Virus record (IMG/VR): IMGVR_UViG_3300047560_001700
Location: 1 to 20,051 of that record
Source of the DNA: a virus
Reading direction: 5' to 3' (one strand)
DNA: 20,051 bases
Part shown: piece after piece, positions 1,022-19,155 of the stretch
Layout of the letters: each line of letters starts with the position of its first letter
How positions within the stretch are numbered: the stretch's first letter is position 1
The notes under the pieces: model-generated
Told to the model about the DNA's origin: nothing
The model's database searches: none
The model's input: the letters and a program-made list of their open reading frames with translations, nothing else
Translations under genes and position numbers: made by a program

Positions 1022-1486
1022 ATGAAAAAAGGTGAAATGTTAGACAAAATGCTTCATATCGCTGTGAATGCTCACCATGGTCAATTCGACAAGGGTGGTA
1101 ATCCCTACATTCTCCATCCTCTGAAAGTGATGCACTACCTGAAGTCTGACGACGAAGAACTGATGTGTATGGCTCTTGGTCATGACGTGATTGAAGACAC
1201 TGATGTGACTTACCAAGACCTACGTGATGCTGGCATCTCTGAGCGAGTTATCAAAGGTCTACAATGCCTTACAAAGCAACGTGGCCAAACTTACGAAGAG
1301 TACAAGGCTGGTGTGTTCTCTAGCTACGACGCCATGCGTGTTAAGATGGCTGACTTGCGACACAATACCGACATTCGTCGTTTGAAGGGTGTGACTGAGA
1401 AGGATATTGCTCGAATCGCAAAGTACCAAGTGTTCTACTTGGAAATTAAGGCTCGTGTCGCCTCTTTCGAGAAAATTGCTACTTGA
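1022..1486 (+). CDS. HD-domain hydrolase, small alarmone hydrolase (SpoT/MESH1-like)
   Basis: A 154-residue stand-alone HD domain matching the RelA/SpoT hydrolase half. Visible metal-site motifs are His32 (LHP), His54-Asp55 with Glu58-Asp59 (HDVIED), and Asp111 with His114-Asn115 (DLRHN). No synthetase or regulatory domain follows, so it resembles small alarmone hydrolases and MESH1. Family members remove the 3'-pyrophosphate of (p)ppGpp; animal MESH1 also dephosphorylates NADPH to NADH. Which activity applies here is unknown, but it sits directly upstream of the NAD+ salvage genes. It has its own promoter and a TTAGGAG-type ribosome-binding site. Confidence 0.85.
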   Translation: MKKGEMLDKMLHIAVNAHHGQFDKGGNPYILHPLKVMHYLKSDDEELMCMALGHDVIEDTDVTYQDLRDAGISERVIKGLQCLTKQRGQTYEEYKAGVFSSYDAMRVKMADLRHNTDIRRLKGVTEKDIARIAKYQVFYLEIKARVASFEKIAT

Positions 1487-1516
1487 CTTGCAGATAGTTT
1501 TGTAGTAAGATATATA
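1483..1516 (+). promoter_or_regulatory. Promoter of the NAD+ salvage unit
   Basis: Two overlapping registers are possible. TTGACT (1483-1488) with a 17-bp spacer gives TAAGAT (1506-1511). TTGCAG (1488-1493) with a 17-bp spacer gives TATATA (1511-1516). The first has the better -35. The -35 overlaps the stop of the HD hydrolase gene. Confidence 0.65.
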
Positions 1517-1521
1517 AACAA

Positions 1522-1542
1522 AGAGTCTGGTAGTCAGACTCT
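1522..1542 (+). promoter_or_regulatory. Leader hairpin upstream of nadM
   Basis: AGAGTCTG (1522-1529) pairs perfectly with CAGACTCT (1535-1542) around a 5-nt loop. It lies between promoter and ribosome-binding site and has no U-run, so it is not a terminator. It would sit at or near the 5' end of the transcript, where it could protect the mRNA or act as a regulatory structure. Confidence 0.6.
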
Positions 1543-1550
1543 AGAATGAA

Positions 1551-1567
1551 TTCTTAGGAGCTAAGAA
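1551..1567 (+). promoter_or_regulatory. Ribosome-binding site inside an inverted repeat (nadM)
   Basis: TTCTTAG (1551-1557) and CTAAGAA (1561-1567) are exact reverse complements around GAG. The Shine-Dalgarno AGGAG (1556-1560) therefore spans the stem end and the loop. It ends two bases before ATG 1569. The same arrangement precedes nadV (2548-2562). Confidence 0.65.
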
Positions 1568-1568
1568 A

Positions 1569-2543
1569 ATGAAAACTGGAATTTTTATCGGACGTTTTCA
1601 ACCTGTCCACCAAGGACACGTCCACGCACTAGGCATTGCTGCCTCTCAAGTAGATAAACTCTACATCCTCGTTGGTTCCGCTAATCAATGCAGGTCTATC
1701 AAAAACCCTTGGACATTCCAAGAGCGTTCATCAATGTTACGTAGTAAACTGCGTAATGCCAACATCTCGAATTATGAGATTCTCCCACTAAACGACTATC
1801 GCTATTCAGATTCTCAATGGATGTCGGACGTTCGTGCCACTGTTGAACACTATGACATGGGCATTCCTACTCTGTTCGGTCACATGAAAGAAGGCAACAA
1901 CTATCTGACATGGTTCCCTGATTGGCCATTCAAAAGCATTGAGTCTCAATACAACGTGAATGCCACTGCTGTTCGTCAACGAATGTTCGATCTGAAAGAT
2001 CCCGACATGCCACAGACTGTTCAAGCTGACTACGCATTCTACCAGAAAGAGAAAGTTACGTTTGCTGACTATCCGTTCCCAGAGACTTTGAACTTCAACT
2101 GCTCTGATGCGATTCTGGAATGCCAAGGACATGTGTTGCTTATCCAACGCAAGTTCGCACCAGGTGCTGGAGCATGGGCTCTTCCAGGTGGTTTTCGTAA
2201 TCAACGTGAGACATTCCTCGATTGTGCCATTCGTGAATTGATCGAAGAAACAAATGTTAGAGTTCCAGAGAAAGTTCTCCGTGGCTCTATCGTGAAGACT
2301 GAATTGTTCGATGATCCAAGTCGTTCATTCGGTATTCCCCGAAACACTATGGCTGTGTACATGAGAATCAACCCAAACCCTGATTTCTCGTTGCCACGTG
2401 CCAATGGTGCCGACGATGCTGCTTTGTGTAAGTGGGTGCCACTCACTGATGCTCTCAATACAATTGAGATGTATGACGACCACAAAGACATCTTGTCAAA
2501 AGTAACTGGTGTGAATCCCATGCCAGCATTTTCAAAACTGTAA
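1569..2543 (+). CDS. nadM: Bifunctional NMN adenylyltransferase / Nudix hydrolase
   Basis: A 324-residue protein with two domains. The first is a nucleotidyltransferase: GRFQPVHQGH at residues 8-17 contains the HxGH ATP-binding motif, and NATAVRQR (131-138) is the second signature. The second, from about residue 175, is a Nudix domain with box G208-x5-E214-x7-RELIEET, ending TNV where the consensus has x-G-hydrophobic; the Gly is replaced by Asn. Known relatives are the NadM-Nudix enzymes and phage KVP40 NatV: NMN + ATP gives NAD+, and the Nudix half typically cleaves ADP-ribose. It is the first gene of a unit with nadV 19 bases downstream. Its ribosome-binding site lies in a perfect inverted repeat. 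Function is confident; the Nudix substrate is inferred. Confidence 0.92.
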   Translation: MKTGIFIGRFQPVHQGHVHALGIAASQVDKLYILVGSANQCRSIKNPWTFQERSSMLRSKLRNANISNYEILPLNDYRYSDSQWMSDVRATVEHYDMGIPTLFGHMKEGNNYLTWFPDWPFKSIESQYNVNATAVRQRMFDLKDPDMPQTVQADYAFYQKEKVTFADYPFPETLNFNCSDAILECQGHVLLIQRKFAPGAGAWALPGGFRNQRETFLDCAIRELIEETNVRVPEKVLRGSIVKTELFDDPSRSFGIPRNTMAVYMRINPNPDFSLPRANGADDAALCKWVPLTDALNTIEMYDDHKDILSKVTGVNPMPAFSKL

Positions 2544-2547
2544 TTAA

Positions 2548-2562
2548 GATTAGGAGCTAATC
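2548..2562 (+). promoter_or_regulatory. Ribosome-binding site inside an inverted repeat (nadV)
   Basis: GATTAG (2548-2553) and CTAATC (2557-2562) are exact reverse complements around GAG, abutting ATG 2563. AGGAG (2552-2556) spans the stem end and loop, as in front of nadM but with different arm bases. Confidence 0.6.
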
Positions 2563-3963: not shown

Positions 3964-3981
3964 ACCTTAGGTATTACTTTA

Positions 3982-4008
3982 ATGACCCCACACGAAGTGG
4001 GGTCATTT
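3982..4008 (+). terminator. Rho-independent terminator of the NAD+ unit
   Basis: ATGACCCCAC (3982-3991) pairs perfectly with GTGGGGTCAT (3997-4006) around loop ACGAA, followed by TT. It is the longest stem of the three CCCCAC-type terminators. The arms are also near-perfect in the other direction, but there is no gene on that side to terminate. Confidence 0.85.
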
Positions 4009-4047: not shown

Positions 4048-4078
4048 AACTACAGTTGATTAGGAAAGAAAGACCCAA

Positions 4079-4915: not shown

Positions 4916-5971
4916 ATGCGTAAACTTGCGAAAATTGTTAAGATTGATGAACTGAACCCTATCGATGGTGCTGATGCTATTGAGTGCGCAGTGGTTGGTG
5001 GTTGGAAGGTAGTGGCTCAGAAGGGTCTCTACAATGTCGGTAACTTTGCGGTGTACTTCGAGATCGACTCTTGGATCCCGACTGAACTTGCTCCATTCCT
5101 GTCTAAAGGTAAAGAGCCACGTGAGTTCGAAGGTGTCAAGGGTGAACGTCTGCGCACTATCAAACTGCGTGGCCAACTATCTCAAGGTCTGCTGATGCCA
5201 CTGTCTGAAATCTATGATCATGTTGGTGGTCAAATCTTTGCTGAAATCTGTGAAGAGGAAGGTGCTGACGTGACTGAATTGCTTGGTATCAAGAAGTGGG
5301 AAAAGCCAATGAACGCCCAACTTGCTGGTGTGTGTAAAGGTAACTTTCCTTCTCTGATTCCAAAGACTGATCAAGAGCGTTGCCAAAACCTGAAGAAAGA
5401 AATCGTTGCTGCCAACGAAGCTGGTCTGAAGTTCGAAATCACTGAGAAGCTGGAAGGCTCTTCAATGACGGTGTACCAGATTAAAGGTGAGTTTGGTGTC
5501 TGCTCTCGTAACATGGATCTGAAAGAAACCGAAGGTAACTCTTTCTGGGCTACTGCTCGTAAGGAAGGTATCCAAGAAAAGATGGCTGCTGTTGATGAGT
5601 ACTGGGACTTCGCTATCCAAGGTGAATTGATTGGACCAGGAATTCAAGGTAACATCTACAATCTGAAGGAATGTGAGTTCCGTGTGTTCGATGTGTACAA
5701 CATCCAAGCTGGTGAATACATGCTGCCACAGGCTCGTCGTCGTCTGATCGAACAGATGGGTCTGAAGCATGCGCCTGTTCTTGCAGCTTCTGCTGATATG
5801 TACGACACTCTTGGTATCACTGACATTCCTCAACTGCTTACATTCGCTGAAGGTAAGTCTGTAATGGGCGACATCACTGGTCCAGAGCGTGAAGGTATCG
5901 TGTTCAAGCAAGTCGATGGTGGTATGTCTTTCAAGGCTATCTCTAACAAGTACCTGCTTGGTGAAAAGTGA
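4916..5971 (+). CDS. RNA ligase, DRB0094 / DraRnl (Rnl5) family
   Basis: A 351-residue ATP-dependent ligase. An N-terminal OB-like domain (about 1-130; VGGWKVVAQKGLYNVG) precedes the nucleotidyltransferase core, the domain order of Deinococcus DraRnl. Core motifs: lysine nucleophile Lys178 in EKLEGSS (motif I), VCSRN (195-199), GELIGPGIQGN (236-246), FRVFDVYN (255-262, motif III), EGIVFK (326-331, motif IV) and SFKAIS with Lys340 (motif V). Family enzymes seal nicked or broken RNA through ligase-AMP and AppRNA. In phages, RNA ligases repair host or phage RNA cut by anticodon nucleases, which is a reasonable but unproven role here. It is the last gene of the unit that starts at 4019. Confidence 0.92.
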   Translation: MRKLAKIVKIDELNPIDGADAIECAVVGGWKVVAQKGLYNVGNFAVYFEIDSWIPTELAPFLSKGKEPREFEGVKGERLRTIKLRGQLSQGLLMPLSEIYDHVGGQIFAEICEEEGADVTELLGIKKWEKPMNAQLAGVCKGNFPSLIPKTDQERCQNLKKEIVAANEAGLKFEITEKLEGSSMTVYQIKGEFGVCSRNMDLKETEGNSFWATARKEGIQEKMAAVDEYWDFAIQGELIGPGIQGNIYNLKECEFRVFDVYNIQAGEYMLPQARRRLIEQMGLKHAPVLAASADMYDTLGITDIPQLLTFAEGKSVMGDITGPEREGIVFKQVDGGMSFKAISNKYLLGEK

Positions 5972-13479: not shown

Positions 13480-13577
13480 ACCTAAAGTATTACACCAGAT
13501 TTGAGGGTTATTCCAGATACTTGTTGTCTTAAATACTCACTTCGGTAATAATTACTACAGTTGATTAGGAGAACGAA
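13477..13577 (+). repeat. Terminator-less intergenic promoter cassette, copy 1
   Basis: Begins at the stop codon with TAAACCTAAAGTATTAC, then CAGATTTGA and CCAGATA blocks, TTGTTGTC and a promoter. The first 50 or so bases recur at 14342 with few changes. There is no hairpin with a U-run, unlike the CCCCAC-type cassettes. The downstream half matches the promoters at 107 and 19097. Confidence 0.72.
13524..13552 (+). promoter_or_regulatory. Sigma-70-type promoter with conserved leader
   Basis: TTGTCT (13524-13529), 17-bp spacer, AATAAT (13547-13552), then the ACTACAGTTGATTAGGA leader ending in the ribosome-binding site for ATG 13578. It is the same promoter type as at 107 and 19097. Confidence 0.78.
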
Positions 13578-19125: not shown

Positions 19126-19155
19126 TACTACAGTTGATTAGGAAAAGGATTTGAG

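Follow-up and report, generated by a model that had tools for sequence, protein, structure and literature searches.

Depletion of NAD+ is widespread as a defence against phages, which answer it with nadV and nadM, the gene pair that makes up NARP2. NARP2 circumvents this depletion by phage-encoded NAD+ salvage (PMC12028318). A NARP2-type pair, with nadV and nadM homologues together, is also present in the viral record analysed here (IMG/VR IMGVR_UViG_3300047560_001700; the whole record of 20,051 bases is referred to as the window). While the NARP2 work concerns the enzymes and we found no RNA leader described there, the leaders of the present genes contain an upstream hairpin (hp1) and a second hairpin around the Shine-Dalgarno (SD) sequence (hp2), which together look like a cis-regulatory RNA family that we did not find described. 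No Rfam 15 family matched, with only tRNAs reaching the gathering threshold, and no account of a two-hairpin nadM/nadV leader was found in the open-licence literature.

Several described RNAs share individual traits with this element. The NAD+-I riboswitch is larger and of a different architecture, and no Rfam model matches here. This riboswitch (nadA motif) mediates translational control by NAD+ and is built from two similar tandem domains (PMC10085692). The NAD+-II riboswitch (pnuC motif), in which the ribosome binding site lies within RNA structure and which has been proposed to be a translational OFF switch (PMC7749635, PMC10085692), resembles our element as a short leader of an NAD-pathway gene with a structured ribosome binding site. 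The two are set apart by their described fold features, as NAD+-II contains P1, P1a and a pseudoknot with an A5 strand, whereas the present element consists of two independent hairpins with no cross-pairing signal; the A5 strand is absent from its conserved columns, and mutual information over 130 leaders (see below) yields two local hairpins only. In addition, NAD+-II serves pnuC, whereas this element serves nadM/nadV. Guanidine-II riboswitches carry ACGR loops; these are absent here, where the loops are GAUAGAC or GGYRGUC and GGA-type, and the gene association differs as well. What guanidine-II shares with our element is the presence of two small stem-loops in one leader (PMC10085692). Finally, the translational repressor operators of T4 and RNA phages likewise place a conserved-loop hairpin at the ribosome binding site, but the present element differs from them in spanning several phage lineages and bacterial chromosomal genes.

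Two hairpins in the nadM-nadV leader of the window

The nadM product combines CTP_transf_like and NUDIX domains, and its relatives carry the annotation NMN adenylyltransferase/NUDIX; the nadV product contains NAPRTase and NAMPT_N domains (Table 1). A sequence-only reading of the window had pointed out that the SD of either gene lies within a perfect inverted repeat, and both repeats are present exactly as it had described them. Its remark that other TTAGGAG-type words lack the 3' arm also holds, for TTAGGAG at 1007 and 13565 and for TTAGGA at 4060. Of the gene starts listed for the window, those of nadM and nadV alone bear an SD hairpin that has 6 bp or more and whose loop is the GAG of the SD. 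The word CTACAGTTGATTAGGA occurs in four exact copies (138-153, 4050-4065, 13555-13570 and 19128-19143), where 0.22 would be expected with up to three mismatches, and at least one copy directly follows a strong -10 box; it serves other genes as a repeated leader-plus-SD that lacks the 3' arm.

Table 1. Features of the nadM-nadV unit in the window
Feature	Position	Strand	Basis
Predicted sigma-70 promoter of the nadM-nadV unit	1483..1511	+	TTGACT, 17 nt, TAAGAT; consensus scan, 9/12 matches
hp1, AGAGTCT-GGTAGTC-AGACTCT	1522..1542	+	In leader minimum free energy (MFE) structure; stem covaries and loop is conserved in homologues
hp2 of nadM, TTCTTAG-GAG-CTAAGAA, holding the SD word	1551..1567	+	Sequence, fold, homologues
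nadM, NMN adenylyltransferase with NUDIX domain, 324 aa	1569..2543	+	Pfam PF01467, PF00293; start codon ATG 1569
hp2 of nadV, GATTAG-GAG-CTAATC	2548..2562	+	Sequence, homologues
nadV, nicotinamide phosphoribosyltransferase, 466 aa	2563..3963	+	Pfam PF04095, PF18127; start codon ATG 2563
Terminator-like hairpin, putative end of the nadM-nadV unit	3981..4007	+	Scan

The sequence-only reading had overlooked hp1, where unpaired bases are better conserved than anywhere else except the SD. In the window, hp1 sits at the start of the predicted nadM transcript, directly upstream of hp2. The window nadV has no hp1 and, in our scan, no recognised promoter of its own; its ATG follows the nadM stop at a distance of 19 nt. 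Downstream of the NAD genes, at 4916-5971, the window also encodes an RNA ligase (PF09414) with a PHA02142 OB-fold domain.

Each hp2 folds on its own, at -3.9 kcal/mol for nadM and likewise -3.9 kcal/mol for nadV, but is only marginally stable, and shuffled sequences are often as stable as the nadV hairpin (z -0.44); the evidence for hp2 is therefore comparative. When the RNA begins at the predicted start, 1518, both hairpins form (-16.3 kcal/mol, z -3.5). Folding 1535-1600 alone is misleading, as this segment cuts hp1 in half and an alternative structure results.

Conservation and covariation in homologous leaders

Homologous nadM and nadV loci were taken from IMG/VR without selection on structure. 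The SD hairpin is kept in almost every one of them while its sequence changes, from GATTAG-GAG-CTAATC to GATAAG-GAG-CTTATC, GTAAG-GAG-CTTAC, ATAAAG-GAA-CTTTAT and AAAAG-GAA-CTTTT before nadV, and from TTCTTAG-GAG-CTAAGAA to TTCTAAG-GAG-TTTAGAA before nadM; in the nadV variant GTTAAG-GAG-ATTAAC, the innermost pair is lost and the outer pairs are retained. These homologues strongly support the earlier suggestion that the arms evolved by compensatory change, and nearly all close homologues pair rather than keeping the SD alone. The two hairpins seen at the outset are, however, only half of a larger element, since hp1 lies upstream of hp2 in the nadM leaders and in many nadV leaders of relatives.

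The stem of hp1 is freely variable and its 7-nt loop near-invariant: most phages have GAUAGAC, the window's group has GGUAGUC, GGCAGUC or GGUGGUC (GGYRGUC), and the overall type is G-RNNGW-C. Being a palindrome next to the promoter of the window, hp1 could also be viewed as a DNA operator, bound by a transcription factor like NrtR. However, a stem that varies freely while its pairing, including G-U pairs, is kept around a conserved loop is the signature of an RNA and not of a DNA operator, which renders this explanation highly improbable.

In an alignment of 46 leaders (A2), 93.3% of the cells of the two-stem structure were paired, compared to 60.8% after shuffling and at most 46% with slid partners. 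The covariation score in this alignment was 0.760 versus 0.166 in the control, doubly changed cells numbered 183 versus 57, and RNAalifold, unaided, returned the same two stems. The MAFFT alignment A1 places GGAA-type hp2 one column off; the first covariance model was therefore built from A2 without GGAA-type hp2. Moreover, unguided, background-corrected mutual information over 130 phage and bacterial leaders ranked the pairs of the hp1 and hp2 stems on top, together with hp1 loop positions 2 and 6, which covary as A.A, G.U or A-U. Conservation and covariation thus lead us to reject a chance origin of the hairpins. Across the same 130 leaders, no mutual information linked hp1 with hp2 and no signal of a pseudoknot or other tertiary contact was found; pairing or kissing between the two hairpins was accordingly rejected.

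The predicted MFE structure of the whole leader contains both hairpins in 123 of the 130 cases. None of the 130 leaders departs from a G at hp1 loop position 5 or from the GGA in hp2; admission to this set had, however, depended on recognisable hairpins and, for hp2, on a GGA. This selection did not create the hp2 result, as hp2 also appears in the unselected nadM and nadV sets.

Distribution and gene association

Both hairpins are present in Xanthomonas phage LucasX, Synechococcus phages B23 and BUCT-ZZ01 and Roseobacter phage DSS3P8, with the SD of the two Synechococcus phages wholly inside the hp2 loop and an hp1 loop of GAAAGAC; Acidovorax phage ACP17 has a variant of the two-hairpin leader. 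An hp2-like hairpin without a clear hp1 precedes nadM in Klebsiella phage phi1_146010 and KVP40 and nadV in Xanthomonas phages X1 and XacN1, and neither hairpin was seen in Myxococcus phage Mx1 or Aeromonas phage 31. Another variant leader (L219, L223, L228-L230) combines hp2 ATAC-GGAGA-GTAT with upstream hairpins that have AGTGA, AGAGA, ACTGA or GGAGA as loops.

In sets of divergent leaders, an hp2 stem of at least 6 bp precedes nadV in 32 of 35 loci when seeded with B23 and in 25 of 48 when seeded with LucasX, but in only 4 of 78 bacterial nadV leaders from many phyla. With stems of 4 bp allowed, both hairpins were found in 18 of these 78, mostly from proteobacteria (Lysobacteraceae, Luteimonas, Xanthomonas, Achromobacter, Caulobacter, Pseudomonadales, Microbulbifer, Thiodiazotropha and Methylomonas). 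The genomes of such carriers gave strong model matches at chromosomal nadV and nadM. Among 40 genomes of one bacterial family, five carry the element, at nadV/nadM, and wider samples of two bacterial classes yielded few convincing matches, again at nadV or nadM. The element, whose occurrence before bacterial genes the sequence-only reading had also overlooked, is thus not phage-specific, and its breadth, from cyanophages through Xanthomonas, Roseobacter and Acidovorax phages to proteobacteria, speaks against a regulator peculiar to one lineage.

The two helices are directly observed, as are their conservation and their association with particular genes. Over all fetched phage loci, 185 of 239 SD hairpins of the hp2 kind lie at nadM or nadV, the remaining 54 being spread over about 2000 other SD-ORF starts, many of them spurious ORFs. 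In covariance-model searches of 42 phage records and several hundred bacterial genomes, convincing matches fell almost only on nadM, nadV or adjoining genes. In 22 whole phage records, the matches of model R1 whose loci were fetched lie at nadM/nadV or, in an operon where one gene separates element and nadM, 350 nt before nadM; the sole exception was a locus without nadM and nadV in Stenotrophomonas phage RAS14 (L128, E 0.147). Model R2 gave the same picture in 20 further records (with RAS14 again included), except that one record (L419) has additional copies next to nadM and a second record (L420) has a copy on another gene. Where a small gene is first in the nadM unit, it is this gene that both hairpins precede, and the SD of nadM is an ordinary one.

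L419 has three near-identical leaders (record coordinates 72838-74022), one before nadM and the others before two unknown genes next to it, an arrangement that looks like recent duplication. In L107, L083, L424 and L425, a recurrent protein of 106-110 aa is encoded first in the nadM unit, behind a two-hairpin leader; the one member checked is phrog_12218 (unknown function) and has the motif NHTDGCGWxYE. In a Pseudomonadales genome (L371), the element also precedes a 343-aa gene behind nadV that appears SPFH-like by eye.

Possible modes of control

Taken as a whole, the earlier interpretation is partly supported. Judging from anatomy and conservation, the SD hairpin likely governs translation, and the two hairpins are most likely a cis-acting translational control element before nadM/nadV, plausibly a new NAD-pathway riboswitch. 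As in riboswitches generally, a conserved cis-acting RNA structure leads metabolically related genes. Our best explanation, to which we assign an even chance, is an element of about 50 nt in which binding of an NAD-pathway metabolite alters access to the SD of nadM/nadV. According to this model, hp1, with its strong stem and conserved loop, would be the recognition module and hp2, with its weak stem around the SD, the expression platform, which 30S subunits would open unless it were held closed. NAD+, NMN or nicotinamide might bind in the hp1-hp2 region and thereby change SD access, so that at low NAD the phage or bacterium would produce the salvage enzymes. We infer translational control, the direction of regulation and the ligand alike; for the last, the earlier suggestion of NAD+ or nicotinamide is a reasonable proposal of candidates. 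hp2 is weak almost everywhere (median about -3 kcal/mol, and about -4 kcal/mol in most GC-rich bacteria), while hp1 reaches down to -18 kcal/mol in GC-rich bacteria, and a weak hp2 beside such a strong hp1 fits a switchable platform. Two small hairpins are, on the other hand, sparse for an aptamer.

The confinement to NAD salvage genes across unrelated hosts suggests that the signal comes from the pathway, as a metabolite or as one of the enzymes. With its variable stem and conserved loop, hp1 also resembles a protein-binding hairpin, and NadM, NadV or a widespread host protein might bind the loop and keep hp2 closed, in autogenous or other repression. Variation of the hp1 loop type by lineage, GGYRGUC in the window's group versus GAUAGAC elsewhere, could be read in the same way. 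NadM and NadV do travel with the element, nadM being present in 20/20 records searched for it and nadV in 6/6; with the genes in every record searched, gene presence cannot separate metabolite from autogenous control. However, Pfam recognises no RNA-binding domain in NadM or NadV, and a host protein would need to function in very different hosts. Mainly on account of this breadth and of the lack of a recognised RNA-binding domain, we favour a metabolite and consider a protein operator rather unlikely, albeit the main rival.

With a GGA presented in its loop, at the SD, hp2 resembles a CsrA site. Alternatively, hp2 might shield the SD from a RegB-like RNase, as T4 RegB cleaves GGAG/U in SD sequences and RNA structure protects these targets (PMC3014915). 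However, hp1 is devoid of GGA, and neither activity accounts for the restriction to NAD genes. In addition, 15 phage records gave no RegB-family match above the cut-off and no CsrA; CsrA was also not found in an element-carrying Achromobacter genome but was present in two other bacterial genomes tested. We regard a role of either factor as exceedingly doubtful.

Returning to metabolite sensing, we tentatively propose, at slightly less than an even chance, a third class of NAD-pathway riboswitch, common to phages and proteobacteria, in which tandem hairpins, one with a conserved RNNGW loop and one around the SD, would allow phages to step up NARP2-type rebuilding of NAD+ when the immunity of the host drains it. 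That a compact RNA element accompanies nadM/nadV both in bacteria and in phages whose hosts are unrelated suggests post-transcriptional tuning of the salvage answer, perhaps by the NAD level itself. If true, this would add a small riboswitch class and, to our knowledge, the first riboswitch on a phage counter-defence pathway.

An effector might also be dispensable, with a weak hp2 setting basal initiation and coupling nadV to nadM and with hp1 positioning or stabilising the mRNA 5' end. In nadM-nadV operons without a promoter in between, 10-19 nt separate the nadM stop from the nadV ATG, and in several of them this stop falls within the hp2 arm of nadV; hp2 without hp1 occurs before nadV genes directly behind nadM. 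For such nadV genes, our favoured metabolite model likewise has hp2 alone probably coupling translation to ribosomes ending nadM, the simplest role. Moreover, a -10-like hexamer shortly precedes hp1 in 60 of 73 copies (control, 31 of 73). hp2 without hp1 is also found before some nadV genes with promoter-like sequence of their own, which implies that hp1 is not always needed and poses a difficulty for hp1 as a sensing module. However, control without an effector leaves both the near-invariant hp1 loop and the restriction to NAD genes unexplained, and in five loci (L058, L086, L094, L102 and L115) hp1 of nadV shares sequence with the 3' end of the gene before it, so that hp1 need not mark the mRNA 5' end and is not just a stabiliser. 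Overall, we deem the effector-free explanation improbable.

In the same five loci, the TAG within the GATAGAC loop is the stop codon of the upstream gene, which is nadM where the position was checked.
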